Assembly (NCBI GenBank): GCA_020718315.1
Contig: DYSK01000003.1
Coordinates: 1 to 37,736, forward strand
Source of the DNA: Draconibacterium orientale
GTDB lineage: Bacteria > Bacteroidota > Bacteroidia > Bacteroidales > UBA12170
Direction of reading: 5' to 3'
Length of the DNA: 37,736 bases
Part shown: in pieces, positions 16,590-30,588 of the stretch
Numbering within the stretch: position 1 is the stretch's first letter
Layout: each line of letters begins with the position of its first letter
Notes under the pieces: generated by a model
The model's database searches: none
What the model was told of the DNA's origin: nothing
The model's input: only the letters and a program-made list of their open reading frames with translations
Translations under genes and position numbers: made by a program

Positions 16590-19412
16590 ATGATTAAGGT
16601 TTTAAATTTCAAGTTATTTCGAATTCTGCTGTTGTTTTTACCTGTAATAAATCCGGTAAGCATTCAGGCTCAATACTATGCAGGTGGGCAAAGTCCCGGC
16701 AGCCTGAAATGGGATCAGATAAACAGTGCATATTTTCAAATTATTTTTCCGAAAGGCTACGAAAATCAAGCCAATTATTTGGCCAATATTTTGGAATATG
16801 CGCGTGTTTTAGATGGGAAGACGCTTCAGAATTTTCCAAGAAAAATATCGGTTCTGCTGCACAACCGATCCGTAAACAGCAATGCCGAGGTTGGTTGGGC
16901 TCCTCGACGAATCGAATTTTTTACACAATCGCCACAAGACAGCTATGCCCAAGAGTGGTTGCAGCAATTGGCTTTGCACGAATACCGTCATGTTGTTCAA
17001 TTAGACAAAATGAATCAGGGAATAACAAAACTTTTGTATGTTCTATTTGGCCAGCAAATCACAGCCGGAGTATATGGCTTGTTTGTTCCATGGTGGTTTA
17101 TTGAAGGAGATGCGGTTGTAACAGAAACAGCGTTGAGTCGTTCGGGAAGAGGTCGCCAGCCTTTATTTGAAATGGAATTGCGTGCTCAGCTTTTACAAAA
17201 AGGAGCTTTTTCTTACGATAAAGCGGCACATGGATCTTATAGAGATTTCACTACTTCTCATTATCATTTGGGCTATTATTTGGTTGGGTATGGAAGAGCA
17301 AAATACGGTTCCGAATTGTGGGGTAAGGCTTTGGACAATGTGGCGAAATATCCATTTACTATCACTCCGTTTTCAAATAGCCTCAAAAAACAAACAGGCT
17401 TAAACAAAGCGAATTTTTATAGGTCTTCTTTGGCAGATTTAGATTCCATTTGGAAAGAGGTAGACGGAAAATTGGAAAGGACAGCTTTTCAGGATTTAAC
17501 AAAAAGCCAATCATTTGTCGACTATCAAAATCCTATCGCTGTTTCCAAAGAGCAAATCATCGCTTTTAAAGACGATTATCAATCGGTAAGCGAATTGGTT
17601 TTATTGGATTCGCTCGGAAAAGAGCAGCAAGTTAGCTTCTTGGCTTTGCATTTCAAAGAAACACTTTCGTCAAAAAACGGAGTCGTTTGTTGGGCGGAAT
17701 ATGATTTTGACCCTCGATGGGCTTACCAAAGTTTCACAAAAATTGTCACATATTCTTTAAAATCGAAAGAAAAGATTATTTTCTCCGAACAGAAAAGGTA
17801 TTTTTCTCCCGCTTTAAACAGCGATGCCAGCAAAGTTGTTGCCGCGGAGTCGTCGGTAAACGACGAACATAGCTTGGCCATTATCGAGTTGTTGGGCGGA
17901 CTGAAAGAGAAAGAGTTTAAAACCCTTTCGAACGATTTTTTTAGTTATCCGAATTGGTCGGCGAACGACACAAAATTGGTGGCAGTTTGTTTAAATGATC
18001 AAGGGAAAAGCCTTGTCCAATTTGATATAGCATCGGGCAGATATTCCTATTTATTGCCTTTCAGCGCAGTCGATATCAGCAAACCAATTTATTGGCGAGA
18101 CTATATTTTGTATCAAGCCGCCTACACCGGAATAAGCAATATTTTCGCATTGCGCTTGAGCGACCGACAAATTTATCAAATCACGACTTCGGCATTTGGC
18201 GCCCATTCGCCACAAATCTGGAACAATCAGCTATTGTATTCGGAATATACCGCAAATGGAAATCAGATAGCGCTTTCCGGAATAGACTCAATGGATTGGA
18301 AACCGATGTTGGAAGCGGAAAATAGCAATTTTCCATTGGCGGAAATTCTTCAAAAACAAGAAGACACATTGCTGTTAAACAGCGCCATTCCTCAAAAGAA
18401 ATACGAAATAAAAAAGTATAGCAAAATAAGTCATCTCATCAATCCACACAGTTGGGGGCCATTTAGTTTTTCGATGGACACCTACGGTTTTAAGCCGGGC
18501 GCAACAATGAGTTCGCAAAACAAGCTTTCTACCCTTATCATGAGCTTGGGATACGAATATGATTTAAATTTTCAAGAAGGAACAACTTTTGCCGAGATCG
18601 CTTATCTGGGCTGGTATCCAGCGATTGATGCGCGAGTAGATTATGGATACCGCCAACGAATAGCTCACGATGCGCGTGCAGATAGCAATTTCATTTTGAG
18701 TTATAATGAAACCAATTTAAGAACAGCTGTATATGTGCCCTTGTTTTTTAGTTCAGGAACATGGTCGCAGCGAATTCAACCGAGATTGGAATATTCTTAC
18801 AAGCAATTGGATGTTATGAATGTGGGGGTGGAATTGAAGAAAAGCAATTATCAGATTTTGAGCTATTCGATACAATGTTCAAATTTTCAAAAGTCGGCCA
18901 AACAGGCGCTTTTCCCTAAATGGGGACAGCAGATCAATTTCATTTATCTTCAAAGCCCGTTTGATGAGAGTGGAAGTTTGTTTGCTTTCAATTCGGCGTT
19001 TTATTTTCCTGGGTTCGCAAAACACCACGGTCTTCGTGTTTATGTTGCTTATCAAAACCGAATTGGAGATGCCGATTTTTATGCCAATCAGATTGTGTTT
19101 TCGAGAGGATATATTGGACTGAGTTTTGAAGAGCCAATCAGTTATAAAATGGATTATAAATTGCCTTTGGCTTATCCCGATTTTAACATTGGAAGTTTAC
19201 TTTACCTAAAACGAATCAGTTTGGCTTTATATTATGATGAAACCTTCGAAAGAAAAACCGCCGGGACAAGCTATCGCTCTGTGGGCAATGATTTGCTTTT
19301 TGAAGTGCATTTTCTGCGCTCGTTTATTCCATTTGAACTGGGTTTGCGAAGCATTTATTTGCTCGAAAACAAATCGCCCTATTTTGGTTTCTTGGGAACG
19401 ATAAAGATTTAG
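16590..19412 (+). CDS. secreted HExxH metallopeptidase-like domain with beta-propeller (TolB-like) and C-terminal outer-membrane barrel-like region
   Basis: Signal peptide; LALHEYRHVVQLD (HExxH) followed by WWFIEGDAVVTE; middle repeats such as YFSPALNSDASKVVAAES and FFSYPNWSANDTKLVAV; amphipathic strand-rich C-terminus. Confidence 0.75.
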   Translation: MIKVLNFKLFRILLLFLPVINPVSIQAQYYAGGQSPGSLKWDQINSAYFQIIFPKGYENQANYLANILEYARVLDGKTLQNFPRKISVLLHNRSVNSNAEVGWAPRRIEFFTQSPQDSYAQEWLQQLALHEYRHVVQLDKMNQGITKLLYVLFGQQITAGVYGLFVPWWFIEGDAVVTETALSRSGRGRQPLFEMELRAQLLQKGAFSYDKAAHGSYRDFTTSHYHLGYYLVGYGRAKYGSELWGKALDNVAKYPFTITPFSNSLKKQTGLNKANFYRSSLADLDSIWKEVDGKLERTAFQDLTKSQSFVDYQNPIAVSKEQIIAFKDDYQSVSELVLLDSLGKEQQVSFLALHFKETLSSKNGVVCWAEYDFDPRWAYQSFTKIVTYSLKSKEKIIFSEQKRYFSPALNSDASKVVAAESSVNDEHSLAIIELLGGLKEKEFKTLSNDFFSYPNWSANDTKLVAVCLNDQGKSLVQFDIASGRYSYLLPFSAVDISKPIYWRDYILYQAAYTGISNIFALRLSDRQIYQITTSAFGAHSPQIWNNQLLYSEYTANGNQIALSGIDSMDWKPMLEAENSNFPLAEILQKQEDTLLLNSAIPQKKYEIKKYSKISHLINPHSWGPFSFSMDTYGFKPGATMSSQNKLSTLIMSLGYEYDLNFQEGTTFAEIAYLGWYPAIDARVDYGYRQRIAHDARADSNFILSYNETNLRTAVYVPLFFSSGTWSQRIQPRLEYSYKQLDVMNVGVELKKSNYQILSYSIQCSNFQKSAKQALFPKWGQQINFIYLQSPFDESGSLFAFNSAFYFPGFAKHHGLRVYVAYQNRIGDADFYANQIVFSRGYIGLSFEEPISYKMDYKLPLAYPDFNIGSLLYLKRISLALYYDETFERKTAGTSYRSVGNDLLFEVHFLRSFIPFELGLRSIYLLENKSPYFGFLGTIKI

Positions 19413-22508: not shown

Positions 22509-25500
22509 ATGGACAATCATTTTAGAAATCGGCTTTGGAGTTATCTGAAGCCGATTTTTTTAGCTGTAGTTATACTGCCGTTAAATCTTTTTGCTCAAAC
22601 CTATTATTTCGAAAATTATAGTGTTCAACAAGGACTTCCCAATTCAAAAGTTTATAGTGTTTTACAAGATAACGAAGGCTATATTTGGATTGCATCACCG
22701 AGCGGTTTGAGTAAGTTCGATGGCTCAAATTTTACTTCTGTAGGAGAAGAATTCCATATTCCCGAAGCAAACGTAAGAGCCCTATTTCTCGACTCAAAGA
22801 AAAATCTTTGGGTAGGCTATGACAACGGAAATGTTTACGTAAAAAGCGAAGGGGTTTTTTATGAAATCCTGAACGACTCCATTAACCCGAAAGGCTCAAT
22901 CACTGATTTTAGTGAAGCTACAAAAGGAACAGTGATTGTTACAACTGTTGGAGCCGGTGCTTTCTTTATTCACAATGCCCTCAGTAAAGAACAGGAAATA
23001 GAACTCTTTACAGGAAAGGAAGGTCTTAGTGATGAGATATATAAAACCATTTGTCTGAAAAATGGAGATGTTTTTTTTGCTACAAATGTCGATTTAAAAT
23101 ACCTCCCTGTCGATAGCACGCGTTTCAAGTATTTTAGACCAAAAAATTTCCCGACATTCTTTTTATCTACTTCTGTTTTACAAGATAAAGATGGCAATTT
23201 ATGGATTGGAAAACACAATGGAGGATTGTATAAGTATAATTTTGAAAAAGACGAATTTATTTTTTTCGATCAAAGAGATGGTTTAGCGGAAAATTTTGTT
23301 AGCTCTCTTTTTCAGGATTCCAAAGGCAATATCTGGGTGGGAACTTGGGGTGGTGGAATTAGCGTTTTAGACGGAAAAAAAATTATACACAGCTACAATC
23401 TTTCGAACGGTCTACAAGGAATGAATATCCAGAAAATCACCGAGGACGCCGAAGGAAACATTTTGATTGCCACCCAAGAAAATGGGTTTAGTATTTTTAA
23501 AGGTGCCCAATTTCTCGCATTTACTGAGGAAAACGGATTGCCAAACAACCAAATTTGGGCCATCGAAAAAGGCGATGACAATACAGTTTGGCTGGGCACA
23601 AATCTAGGATTGGCATTGGTAGAGATCAAAGACAATAGAACTTTCGAGGTTTTAAAAATTTACAATCAAACCAATAGCGAACTCATCGAAGATAAAATCC
23701 GAAATCTAAGAAGAGATGCTGCCGGAAATTTGTGGGTTGGAACGGCCACTTCGGGTATTCAAAAGTTTGATATAAAGCGTAAAGTGTTTATTTACGATCC
23801 GTTTTTAAATTCAAATTTACCGCGCCAAGCATTGCTTTTGGGTGGGCTCGAAATAGACTCAAAAAACAATTTATACATAGCCACCGTCGATGGATTAATC
23901 AATCACGAAATCAGTAACGGAAAAACCTATCGATTGTCGCAAACCCATAACCTAGGAGGAAATGATATTTCTGCTCTATTTCTCGATTCAAAAGAAAAAC
24001 TTTGGGTTGGTCTTCGCGGACGCGGTGTGTCTTTTATCGAAAACAACACGATTGGATATTATGGAAAAACGAATGGTATAACCCCCGTTTGTTTTGGCCA
24101 ATCGCCAAACGGCGAAATCTGGGTAGGAAGTTACAATGGAGTATATAGGTTTGAAAACGACTCCCTTATAAAAATGTTAGATAAAAGTAGCGGCTTGCTT
24201 TCTGATTATGTTACGCTTTTGCGTTTTGATCATAGCGGCAACCTATATATTGGGAGCAGCAACGGACTGAATAAATACAATTTGGAAACAAAATTAATCA
24301 CCCATTACACCGATAAACTTGGGTTTACAGGGATAGAAACCAAGACAAACGCAGTGCTTGAACTGCCAAATCAACAAGTGTTGTTTGGGGCTACAGATGG
24401 TCTTATGATTTTTAATGAAAACGAAAGTGGAAATTACAATAAAGAGCCTTTTATTCATATTACTAACCTTAAGGTAAACTTAAAGGATTACCCGATGGTT
24501 CAAAACGAATCGTTTTCTTACGATCGGAATTCGTTTCTTTTTAATTTTCATGGCATTTCTTTAAGCAACGAAAGTGCAGTAGAATATCAAGTGATGTTGG
24601 AAGGTTTGGACGAAGATTGGCGCCCGGTTACAAAACAAGAAAATATTTCGTTTTCAAATTTGTCTTTTGGAAGATATACCTTTAAAGTTCGGGCTAAAAA
24701 CAACAATCATGTCTGGAATAAAGAACCAGCTACCTATACTTTTCGAGTTCGCCCTCCATTTTGGATGACTTGGTGGTTTATCGCTTCCGTTACAATCATT
24801 ATAGTGGTTTCTACTATCAGCTTTGTTCGATACCGTATTTATAAGCTGCAGAAAGAAAAAGAAATTCTCGAAAACAAAGTAACCGAACGGACAATTGAAA
24901 TTTCGCAAAAAAACGAATTGTTGGCCGAAAAGAACAAGCACATTACGGACAGTATAAACTATGCAAAAAGAATTCAACACGCAACCATGCGACCTGAAGA
25001 AGATTTGTACAAAATCTATCCGAATTGTTTTATTTTATATTTACCAAAAGACATTGTGAGCGGAGATTTTTATTGGTATTCGCAAAAAGGGAAACATTTG
25101 ATAATTGCCGCCGCCGATTGTACCGGTCATGGTGTTCCTGGCGCTTTTATGAGTATGCTTGGCATTGCGTTTCTAAATGAGATAACAGGAAGAATGAATA
25201 AATATTCTGCCGGAACAATTTTGGAACGTTTGCGCGAAAATGTGATTAAATCCTTGCATCAATCCGACGAAGGGGAATCTCAAAAAGACGGAATGGACAT
25301 TGCCCTGATGGTTTTGGATACAGAAACCAATATTATTCAATTTGCCGGAGCCTACAATCCGCTCTATATTCTTCGAAACAATGATTTGATAGAGGAAAAA
25401 GGCGATCGAATGCCAATTGGTATCCATGCTCGCGATGAAGAAACTTTTACAAATCATGAAATTCAATTAGAAAAAGGCGATGAACTTTTTGTTTTTACTG

Positions 25501-25697
25501 ATGGATATGCCGATCAGTTTGGCGGTCCAAATGGAAAAAAATTGAATTACAAAAAGTTCAGATCAATATTGCAAGAAAGTTGCAGCATCGAAAATACCAG
25601 TGATAAGCGAGAGTTTCTTCACGCCGCTTTCAGAGAATGGCGTTCTGATTATGAGCAACTAGACGACGTTTTGGTGATAGGTGTATCTATCAAATAA
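22509..25697 (+). CDS. Reg_prop beta-propeller / Y_Y_Y / TM sensor with C-terminal SpoIIE-type PP2C phosphatase
   Basis: Repeated D(x)GNLWIG/GNIWVGT propeller motifs; Y_Y_Y region FKVRAKNNNHVWNKEPATYTFRVRPPFW; TM; DIVSGDFYWY, AAADCTGHGVPGAFMSMLG, KDGMDIALMVLD, VFTDGYADQFGG, LDDVLVIGV. Confidence 0.92.
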   Translation: MDNHFRNRLWSYLKPIFLAVVILPLNLFAQTYYFENYSVQQGLPNSKVYSVLQDNEGYIWIASPSGLSKFDGSNFTSVGEEFHIPEANVRALFLDSKKNLWVGYDNGNVYVKSEGVFYEILNDSINPKGSITDFSEATKGTVIVTTVGAGAFFIHNALSKEQEIELFTGKEGLSDEIYKTICLKNGDVFFATNVDLKYLPVDSTRFKYFRPKNFPTFFLSTSVLQDKDGNLWIGKHNGGLYKYNFEKDEFIFFDQRDGLAENFVSSLFQDSKGNIWVGTWGGGISVLDGKKIIHSYNLSNGLQGMNIQKITEDAEGNILIATQENGFSIFKGAQFLAFTEENGLPNNQIWAIEKGDDNTVWLGTNLGLALVEIKDNRTFEVLKIYNQTNSELIEDKIRNLRRDAAGNLWVGTATSGIQKFDIKRKVFIYDPFLNSNLPRQALLLGGLEIDSKNNLYIATVDGLINHEISNGKTYRLSQTHNLGGNDISALFLDSKEKLWVGLRGRGVSFIENNTIGYYGKTNGITPVCFGQSPNGEIWVGSYNGVYRFENDSLIKMLDKSSGLLSDYVTLLRFDHSGNLYIGSSNGLNKYNLETKLITHYTDKLGFTGIETKTNAVLELPNQQVLFGATDGLMIFNENESGNYNKEPFIHITNLKVNLKDYPMVQNESFSYDRNSFLFNFHGISLSNESAVEYQVMLEGLDEDWRPVTKQENISFSNLSFGRYTFKVRAKNNNHVWNKEPATYTFRVRPPFWMTWWFIASVTIIIVVSTISFVRYRIYKLQKEKEILENKVTERTIEISQKNELLAEKNKHITDSINYAKRIQHATMRPEEDLYKIYPNCFILYLPKDIVSGDFYWYSQKGKHLIIAAADCTGHGVPGAFMSMLGIAFLNEITGRMNKYSAGTILERLRENVIKSLHQSDEGESQKDGMDIALMVLDTETNIIQFAGAYNPLYILRNNDLIEEKGDRMPIGIHARDEETFTNHEIQLEKGDELFVFTDGYADQFGGPNGKKLNYKKFRSILQESCSIENTSDKREFLHAAFREWRSDYEQLDDVLVIGVSIK

Positions 25698-27298: not shown

Positions 27299-29779
27299 TT
27301 ATGATTTTTGAAATACACGTTTTAGCAACGACGGCTTTTCTATGTCTTTATCATCCGAATAGTAGCCATATCCGTATCCATATCCGTAGCCATATCCGTA
27401 GCCATAACCATAACCATAACCGTAGCCATAACCATAACCGTAGCCGTAGGCATTTCTCGACAAGCGAACGTCGTTGATTAAAATGTTCACATTTGGTATT
27501 TTGCGTTTTTCAATGTCATTGATAATGGATGCAAACACTTTTTTATGGGTGAAATTTTGGCGGACAATAAATAAATTCACATCTGCATATTTCATCAAAA
27601 GGAAAGCGTCGGTAACCAATCCAACAGGAGGAGTATCAATAATTATATAGTCGTATAGCTCTTTTACTTTAGCAAACAACTCGGCAGTTTTGCTCGAAGC
27701 AATTAGCTCGGCCGGATTTGGAGGAACCGGACCGCCCATAATGATATCCAAATTTTCGATGGTTGAGGTTTGGATGATATCTTCGAGCGAGCTCTTGTTG
27801 ATTAAGTAAGAGGAAATTCCTTCTGTGTTCGACAATCCGAAGTCTTGATATATTTTCGGTTTGCGTAAGTCAAAACCAAAGAGCAATGTTTTTTTGCCAT
27901 ACATAGCGTATATGCTGGCCAAATTTATAGAAGTATATGTTTTTCCGGCTCCTACCATATCCGAAGTAATCAGAATAGTTTGTTGGTCTTTGCCTTGTGC
28001 CAGGTATTGCAAATTGGTTCTGATAGAGCGGAATGATTCGGCAATAGACGATTTTGGGGAAGTTGCCACCACAATTTTTGATTCTTTGTTGCTGTGAATG
28101 GTATGCCCAATAATCGGCAAATTAGTCACCGATTCCACGTCTTTGCGTTCAATAATTTTATCGTTTAGCATATCCTTTCCCATAATATAGCCGATAGGAA
28201 GGACAGCTCCCAAAACGAGGGCGATTAGATAATTCAACGATTTTTTTGGATAAACAGGCGATCCGGCTGCGTCAAGTCTTGCCTGATCAACAATTTCATT
28301 GTTCGGCTGATTCGAAGCGGCTGTAATTTGGGCTTCGGAACGCTTTTTGATCAAAAACTCATACATGGTATTGCTCAATTTAAAATTGCGCTCCATATTG
28401 AAAAGCATCCTTTGAGTAATTGGCAATTTATTTATTTCTATCGCCAATACCTGAATGCGCTCGTCTATATCTTTCAGCGAAATATTCGAAGTCTTGATAA
28501 TGTTATCAATATTTTCGAGCATGGCTCGCTTTTGATTATTTATTTTGAGATCAAGCTCAATGAGAGATGGGTTTTTTTCGGTAGTCCTATACAGAAGCGA
28601 AAGCCGTTCGTCGTAAAGTTTGCTCAAATTACTTACAAATCCGCTAATTACCGGATCGTTGATTCCCAATGCCGTAGGAACAATGATATCGTCGATATTG
28701 TCTTGGGCTTTAAGGATGTAGTCGCGCAAATTTCGATAGTATTTGTCGCTCAACATCAACTCCGCTTTCTTTCCTGTAAGTTCTTTCATCGACTCAAAGG
28801 TCTGCTGAGATTGATAGTCGATATTCATTACTTCGTTTGTGGCTCTAAATTCTTGCAAATTTTGCTGTGCCGAATCCAAGCTTAAGCTGATATTCATCAA
28901 TTGGCTGTCGATAAACTCAATCGTTTTAAGAGAGATTTGATTTTTCTTGTACAAATCGTTCGACAAATAAACTTCGGTAAGCTTGTTCAAAAAATCGACT
29001 GATTTTTCGATATTATTGCCTTTCAGTTTTATTTCCAGAATGGACGACTCTTTGTTGATTGGCTCAATTTCAAAACCCTTGTATTTTGAAACAACACCCG
29101 TGATGCTGTTGAACACAAAATACATGCGCTGATCCAAGTCTGTTTTGGCGTCGAATTTGTCGCTCAACTCAATCCTGAACTTATAATGTTCGGTTTCTAT
29201 GTTCTCACCAAAAAAATGCTCTTCGTTGAGTTTTATTTGTTTCAGACCTTCACCTTCAATTTTTTTATCAAGATAATAATCGTAGAGGTCTATATTTTCG
29301 CCTTCTGCACTCAGATTAAAAGTAGTGGAAGAAAGGATGTTGATATTGAAATTGAGGGTAAGTGGTTGAGGATGTTTTGTTTCGTAAACAACCAGAAACG
29401 GGGATTCCTTATACAGTTCTTTTGAAATAAAATTTTCTTCGCCAAAATAGGAGACTTCAAAAGGGAGTTCTTTGACGGCAATATAGGCCAACCGATACGA
29501 TTTCAATTTCCCAATTTCGTTTTCTATATTCTGCAAATTGTTTCTAAAACCAAAGCCCAACAACATTTGCGGGTCGGCAGTATTTTTGTCTTCAACCAAT
29601 ACAGTTGTCGAAACTTCATAAATAGGTTTGGTGTATTTATTGAAGAGGAAGGCGATTATCAAAGCAATGAAAATAGTGAGAACAAAGAAATACCAATGTC
29701 TATAAAATTTAAAGAACAATGCTTTGTAGTCAATAGCTTCTTCTTGATAGATATCTTGCGGATTAAAATTTTCGTTCAC
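27299..29779 (-). CDS. Wzc-like polysaccharide co-polymerase / BY-type tyrosine autokinase
   Basis: N-terminal Wzz domain; PVYPKKSLNYLIALVLGAVLPIGY; Walker A ITSDMVGAGKTYTSINLAS, Walker A' LLFGFDLRKPK, YIIIDTPPVGLVTDA; Tyr-rich C-terminus. Confidence 0.93.
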   Translation of the reverse strand: MNENFNPQDIYQEEAIDYKALFFKFYRHWYFFVLTIFIALIIAFLFNKYTKPIYEVSTTVLVEDKNTADPQMLLGFGFRNNLQNIENEIGKLKSYRLAYIAVKELPFEVSYFGEENFISKELYKESPFLVVYETKHPQPLTLNFNINILSSTTFNLSAEGENIDLYDYYLDKKIEGEGLKQIKLNEEHFFGENIETEHYKFRIELSDKFDAKTDLDQRMYFVFNSITGVVSKYKGFEIEPINKESSILEIKLKGNNIEKSVDFLNKLTEVYLSNDLYKKNQISLKTIEFIDSQLMNISLSLDSAQQNLQEFRATNEVMNIDYQSQQTFESMKELTGKKAELMLSDKYYRNLRDYILKAQDNIDDIIVPTALGINDPVISGFVSNLSKLYDERLSLLYRTTEKNPSLIELDLKINNQKRAMLENIDNIIKTSNISLKDIDERIQVLAIEINKLPITQRMLFNMERNFKLSNTMYEFLIKKRSEAQITAASNQPNNEIVDQARLDAAGSPVYPKKSLNYLIALVLGAVLPIGYIMGKDMLNDKIIERKDVESVTNLPIIGHTIHSNKESKIVVATSPKSSIAESFRSIRTNLQYLAQGKDQQTILITSDMVGAGKTYTSINLASIYAMYGKKTLLFGFDLRKPKIYQDFGLSNTEGISSYLINKSSLEDIIQTSTIENLDIIMGGPVPPNPAELIASSKTAELFAKVKELYDYIIIDTPPVGLVTDAFLLMKYADVNLFIVRQNFTHKKVFASIINDIEKRKIPNVNILINDVRLSRNAYGYGYGYGYGYGYGYGYGYGYGYGYGYGYYSDDKDIEKPSLLKRVFQKS
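27366..27449 (-). repeat. 14 imperfect 6-bp units encoding (Tyr-Gly)n
   Basis: Plus-strand units: CCATAT x3, CCGTAT x1, CCGTAG x5, CCATAA x5; followed on minus by TyrTyrSerAspAsp. Confidence 0.95.
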
Positions 29780-29793
29780 AGCTTAAGGGGGAT

Positions 29794-30588
29794 TTATTTT
29801 CGTAAAAAAGTAATGATCAAGATAACACTCGAAATTGTTGAAAACAAAAGCGAGTATGGAAAGGTTGCAAACCCATATTGTTTGCTGGGTAAGGGTTCGA
29901 TATAAATTACATCGTTCGGCTTGAGATAGAAGTAGGGCGATTCTAGTATGCTTTGAGAAGTTAAATCGAGCAGTATCATTTGATGACCCGTGCCGGTAGA
30001 ACGCAAAAGTTTCACTGCTTTTTTATTGGCGTAATCGGATACATCGCCTGCCAATGCAATGGCTTCGAAAAGATTTATCTTATCTTGGTAAATTTTATAT
30101 TCGCCCGGATTCCTAACTTCGCCAACGAAAGTGATATTGAAATTTACCAATTTTACAACAACCGTAGTTTCTTTTAAATAGACATCAACGGCAGCTTGAA
30201 TTTTCTCAACGGCTTCTTGTTGGGTCAGTCCTACAAGTGTTATCTTTCCTATCAAAGGGAAATTAATTTCGCCGTTTTGATCTATGGTATAACTATTCAA
30301 GTAAATACTGGCATCGTTGTAAGAAGTCGTCGTTCTATTTCCCGACGACGAATTGAACATTTCATTCGACTTTTCATCCAAACTTCGGATATTAATATAA
30401 GCGTTATCGCCATAATTAAATCGATAATCCAAAATTTTAGAATGTGTAAATTCGCTTTTATTCAGTTCATTCGGCGAACTTGGCTGCAAATATTTAATTT
30501 CTTTCTGCGAAATGCAGGACGAAAAAAACAAACCAATGGCCAAGAAACCAAAGGCTGTTTTGGAAAGAGCATATTTTATTTTTGTCAT
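29794..30588 (-). CDS. polysaccharide export lipoprotein (Wza/BexD-like)
   Basis: Lipobox LFFSSCISQKEI; INFPLIGKITLVGLTQQEAVEKIQAAV; VGEVRNPGEYKIYQDKINLFEAIALAGDVSDYANKKAVKLLRS; YLKPNDVIYIEPL. Confidence 0.92.
   Translation of the reverse strand: MTKIKYALSKTAFGFLAIGLFFSSCISQKEIKYLQPSSPNELNKSEFTHSKILDYRFNYGDNAYINIRSLDEKSNEMFNSSSGNRTTTSYNDASIYLNSYTIDQNGEINFPLIGKITLVGLTQQEAVEKIQAAVDVYLKETTVVVKLVNFNITFVGEVRNPGEYKIYQDKINLFEAIALAGDVSDYANKKAVKLLRSTGTGHQMILLDLTSQSILESPYFYLKPNDVIYIEPLPSKQYGFATFPYSLLFSTISSVILIITFLRK

Follow-up and report, generated by a model that had tools for sequence, protein, structure and literature searches.

It has long been asked how Wzc-type kinases set the length of polysaccharides. 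The ratchet model of 2025 draws on a single E. coli protein, whose YxY tail is broken. The tail of E. coli K30 Wzc (PCP-2a; PDB 7NHR and 9EXO) carries the motif Y713-x-Y715-x-Y717-Y718, a mostly YxY register closed by a Tyr pair. The Tyr at i-2 occupies a pocket composed of A534-P536, P645-L647, E675 and S679, pre-placed for the neighbour's active site, and phosphorylation runs from the C to the N terminus (PMC11986026). The pattern break at N711 disorders the tail, and once four phosphates are in place the octamer ring disassembles (PMC11986026). Within Bacteroidota, Ptk1 of Porphyromonas gingivalis, which has an adjacent wza-like gene (PMC4082711, PMC8863745), autophosphorylates six Tyr in a C-terminal cluster of 16 aa (PMC8863745). 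The Staphylococcus aureus CapAB chimeras contain the BY-kinase CapB and represent what are naturally two proteins, with a short tail and a canonical DxD. A review states that tail tyrosines are poorly conserved in both number and arrangement (PMC12220298).

The window (the whole stretch of 37,736 nt analysed here) contains a gene for an 826-aa protein that shares the domain order and the Wza partner of K30 Wzc (Table 1). The protein scores 170.8 bits against TIGR01007 (polysaccharide biosynthesis tyrosine autokinase; cut-off 108), and the Wzz, GNVR and AAA_31 domains are all above their own cut-offs. Its top sequence relative with a solved structure is K30 Wzc (E = 1.5e-45). When the C-terminal 290 residues are modelled with AlphaFold2, the kinase domain is confidently predicted and the best structural matches are CapAB (3bfv, E = 6.7e-25, TMt 0.91), Wzc (K30 Wzc, Foldseek E = 7e-23), BceF and Etk; the post-kinase tail is predicted to be disordered, with a pLDDT of 25-45 from about model residue 241. 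These matches uphold the original prediction of a Wzc-like BY-kinase with a C-terminal Tyr cluster. Of the two partners in a Wza-Wzc-type polysaccharide export pair, the protein corresponds to the inner-membrane one, as a homologue of the co-polymerase/tyrosine-autokinase, and it is predicted to control the synthesis of an outer sugar coat.

Table 1. Features of the kinase gene, its tail and its neighbours, in window coordinates.
Feature	Position	Strand	Evidence
Putative intrinsic-terminator-like hairpin directly past the kinase stop codon	27271..27293	-	consensus match only
Wzc-like BY-kinase homologue (PCP-2a type), 826 aa, GTG start	27299..29779	-	TIGR01007, Wzz, GNVR, AAA_31, K30 Wzc similarity
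Basic C-terminal end IEKPSLLKRVFQKS, conserved among near relatives	27302..27343	-	translation, relatives compared
YYSDDKD cap: Tyr pair, then acidic residues	27344..27364	-	translation
(Tyr-Gly)14 array, six synonymous hexamers	27365..27448	-	translation
Kinase domain, residues about 565-776	27452..28087	-	AF2 pLDDT about 90
Walker B Asp (IIIDTPP)	27635..27637	-	conserved in 144/144 relatives
Walker A' first Asp replaced by Gly (LFGFDLR), second Asp intact	27875..27877	-	alignment
Walker A end GAGKT	27938..27952	-	Lys conserved in 144/144 relatives
Wzz chain-length-determinant domain	29471..29737	-	PF02706
Wza-like outer-membrane polysaccharide export protein, 14 bp upstream of the kinase	29794..30588	-	PF02563, PF22461

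The wza-like and kinase genes are adjacent in all ten relatives checked for synteny. Within the window no more EPS cluster genes were seen except one unlinked glycosyltransferase, and no LMW-PTP gene is linked to the kinase gene. Matches to the LMW-PTP family, which includes other enzymes too, are present in 11 of 11 genomes of the genus (two partial ones in G000), and no PHP-type CpsB phosphatase (PF19567) was found in the genus. A full BY-kinase homologue was not found in four genomes of the genus (G001, G004, G005 and G006), two of which are at least 94% complete, and by this search the wza-wzc pair seems absent from part of the genus. Elsewhere in the window, a protein with TPR repeats and, at its C terminus, a caspase-like peptidase domain (PF00656; 20033-22483, + strand) adjoins a regulator-propeller/SpoIIE phosphatase protein (22509-25697), and a 940-aa ORF (16590-19412, + strand) has no Pfam or NCBIfam match.

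A strict Walker A' DxDxR is absent from the protein, which has GFDLR. Thus, it is named a BY-kinase homologue by descent and fold; the kinase is putative, and the Gly in place of the first Asp means that activity is not to be presumed. Among 144 aligned relatives the first position is Gly in 96, Asp in 23 and Glu in 21, the second Asp is invariant (144/144) and the Arg is kept in 131. The literature searched yielded no mention of Gly and Glu outnumbering Asp at this position in Bacteroidia homologues. An association of the Gly with long tails (p = 1e-5 in one sample, kinship ignored) was dropped, and the (YG)14+ kinases speak against it, having Asp in 54 and Gly in 26 among the matches listed. 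In the tyrosine pocket defined for K30 Wzc, P645 is conserved in all 144 aligned sequences and P536 is V in this protein (S, G, P or V among relatives); E675 is not Glu, in an alignment that is uncertain around 668-682.

The C terminus reads INDVRLSRNA(YG)14YYSDDKDIEKPSLLKRVFQKS, so that translation bears out the predicted A(YG)14YY-SDDKD tail with 14 units and 16 Tyr. All 14 units are perfect YG, giving 14 consecutive Y-G-Y steps and 16 Tyr in 30 aa with the YY included. The array is the sole (YG)6 match in the genome sequence searched, and (YG)10-15 is found at the same place in six of six congeners of 99-74% identity; it is therefore far beyond chance. In comparison, K30 Wzc has few tail Tyr, the N711 break and four functional phosphorylations against 14 unbroken YG units here. 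Ptk1 resembles the protein in its phylum, its wza-like neighbour and its C-terminal Tyr cluster, but that cluster is smaller and less extended, and its activity is shown whereas that of the present protein is putative.

Comparisons among relatives showed that the long YG tail is a widespread, selected trait of the class. In the genus and the nearest families, all 11 homologues carry (YG)10-15. A class-wide sample contained a BY-kinase homologue in 187 of 217 Bacteroidia genomes; in the best 89 of these 187, which were drawn from the top of the match table and lean to nearer relatives, the longest YG run of the best copy per genome has a median of 7 units (range 1-17); runs of 5 or more units occur in 63, of 10 or more in 25 and of 14 or more in 8. 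Where genomes of the order have a second kinase copy, its run is shorter (median 2). A DNA search for (YG)6 in 396 genomes of the phylum matched 63, mostly of the same class, and all 30 sites read are BY-kinase tails. The strict YG alternation had been called striking; Bacteroidia BY-kinases normally carry long strict runs of YG, and that description is therefore not supported in the sense of unusual. In 119 Bacteroidia tails, the gap between successive Tyr is exactly 2 in 78% of 1295 gaps compared with 26% in shuffled tails, Gly fills the YxY spacer position 964 times out of 1026, and 78 tails have the GYY-acidic ending. No description of a Tyr-Gly kinase tail (YGYGYGYG) was found in the open-access literature searched, in which the YG-tail BY-kinase has apparently not been described before. 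Tyrosine-rich BY-kinase tails in YxY register are already known from K30 Wzc; what appears new is the long unbroken YG version.

Outside Bacteroidota, (YG)14+ kinases were found in an isolate, Lactobacillus ultunensis DSM 16047, and in MAGs labelled Lentisphaerota, Actinobacteria and Clostridiales, taxon labels that may be wrong. In a quick tree with long branches these kinases branch apart from the Bacteroidia ones with 98% SH-aLRT, which makes more than one origin of long YG tails probable. The CpsD-type kinase of L. ultunensis (L215) likewise has (YG)14 directly after the kinase domain. However, it is of the split Gram-positive type with a canonical Walker A' (LLIDGDLR), lies on the other tree branch and has a more uniform set of hexamers.

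The likenesses in register and ending make it fairly likely that the tail is an uninterrupted, extended version of the K30 Wzc YxY ratchet track, and it is probably an unusually long track for stepwise self-phosphorylation. Trans phosphorylation, the ratchet, the timer and an effect on EPS are all inferred by homology. Since (YG)14YY corresponds to the K30 track without breaks and at several times its length, it may act as a longer counter or timer. About 15 unbroken phosphorylation steps would be available, compared with four functional ones in E. coli K30, before the kinase ring disassembles; the number of steps would then bear on polymer length or amount, and a phosphatase would reset the phosphorylated tail. 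Several observations count against the ratchet reading: the Walker A' Gly, the apparent non-conservation of P536 and E675, the disassembly of the K30 octamer after only four phosphates, and the 3-8 units that suffice in many relatives and the 0-3 often present in paralogues.

A possible but rather doubtful alternative is that the tail is phosphorylated and only the total phosphate load counts, as a graded charge with no ordered ratchet or timer and with unit number loosely selected above a minimum. K30 Wzc has no single essential or sufficient Tyr (PMC8285477), in line with this alternative. The unit number is also labile, ranging from 0 to 17 across relatives, and a tree of 124 rows requires at least 23 crossings of the 10-unit threshold (37 with shuffled labels). 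However, a pure load model needs neither the strict spacing of 2 nor the Gly, both of which are strongly kept. It is improbable that the array is a sticky low-complexity segment that gathers the export machinery by condensation or clustering, or binds a partner, with phosphorylation secondary. The predicted disorder, the composition of Tyr and Gly only and the runs of up to 17 units would suit such a segment, but it would not lead one to expect a GYY-acidic cap like that of the K30 layout, or a constant position directly behind the last kinase strand.

At the nucleotide level, the array contains six hexamers (TATGGC x4, TATGGT x3, TACGGA x3, TACGGT x2, TACGGC x1 and TATGGA x1) rather than the four originally counted, with an entropy of 2.41 bits. 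Its TRF score is 70-120 depending on the period, the best being 24 bp x 3.7 with an 87% match. A scan for (YG)14 over one genome per GTDB species found at least 120 contigs; among the 120 listed, 97 arrays lie in ORFs matching the kinase profile, 3 are cut-off kinase tails and 20 lie elsewhere. The 100 kinase arrays listed have 14-17 units, none exceeding 17, with a median of five hexamers, an entropy of 2.09 bits and 8% identical neighbours. The 20 non-kinase arrays listed have up to 63 units, a median of one hexamer, an entropy of 0 and 100% identical neighbours (p = 1.5e-11 among the matches listed). An array of 63 perfect TACGGC units in Streptomyces sp. CB01881 (L283), in an ORF unrelated to kinases, is one of these microsatellite controls. 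Kinase arrays are thus scrambled where non-kinase arrays are mostly one-hexamer microsatellites, showing that the peptide rather than the DNA repeat is kept by selection, as the original prediction had read from the synonymous variation. The Tyr codon usage of the arrays equals that of the kinase body, and 12-26% of body codons differ nonsynonymously from five congeners, yet all array units are YG. The peptide is under purifying selection while the DNA repeat is scrambled.

A neutral hexanucleotide microsatellite that is in frame by chance is very unlikely. The array is a tandem repeat with a varying unit number, and an excess of even lags suggests growth in 12-bp blocks, but the kinase arrays are synonymously scrambled where real microsatellites are uniform, and the same peptide occurs at the same place class-wide. 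Slippage as the sole origin was ruled out by comparison with the non-kinase arrays listed (six hexamers in 14 units, with the entropy above against a median of 0). Selection on the nucleic acid itself, for example for a two-tetrad RNA G-quadruplex, is hardly credible and was rejected: GG does recur every 6 nt by construction, but GGG is depleted (7.7% of array Gly codons vs. 15.6% in kinase bodies) and third positions vary freely.

The peptide is kept, and its length changes. YG units are gained and lost between lineages, in agreement with the suggestion that repeat slippage alters the Tyr number: the nearest lineage, whose flanks and kinase domain are 95-96% identical at the nucleotide level, has 13 units instead of 14, and of the 776 body codons 64 differ synonymously and 5 nonsynonymously. 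Each species is represented by a single genome in the sets compared, and the unit changes seen are those between lineages. Identical neighbouring units are rarer than expected (175 vs. 309 under permutation, z = -9.6), with an excess at even lags. Array growth by 12-bp blocks, selection against runs of 6 bp, or the two together would fit this pattern. A fuller version of the ratchet-track reading can be put forward tentatively. The Bacteroidota BY-kinase tail would count phosphorylation steps processively, and in-frame gain and loss of YG would set the number of steps within a bounded range; neighbouring units would be kept synonymously different for the stability of the 6-bp repeat, and the enzyme may work with an altered Walker A' that contains Gly.

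For their own clade, the Bacteroidia qualify the statement of the review (PMC12220298), since the number of tail tyrosines is not conserved but their arrangement is. The tuning of EPS by the tail, an idea of the original prediction, now has a concrete structural model in the K30 ratchet, by which it may operate. Bacteroidia tails range naturally between 0 and 17 unbroken steps and differ by one unit in sister lineages, a series that suits tests of step number.
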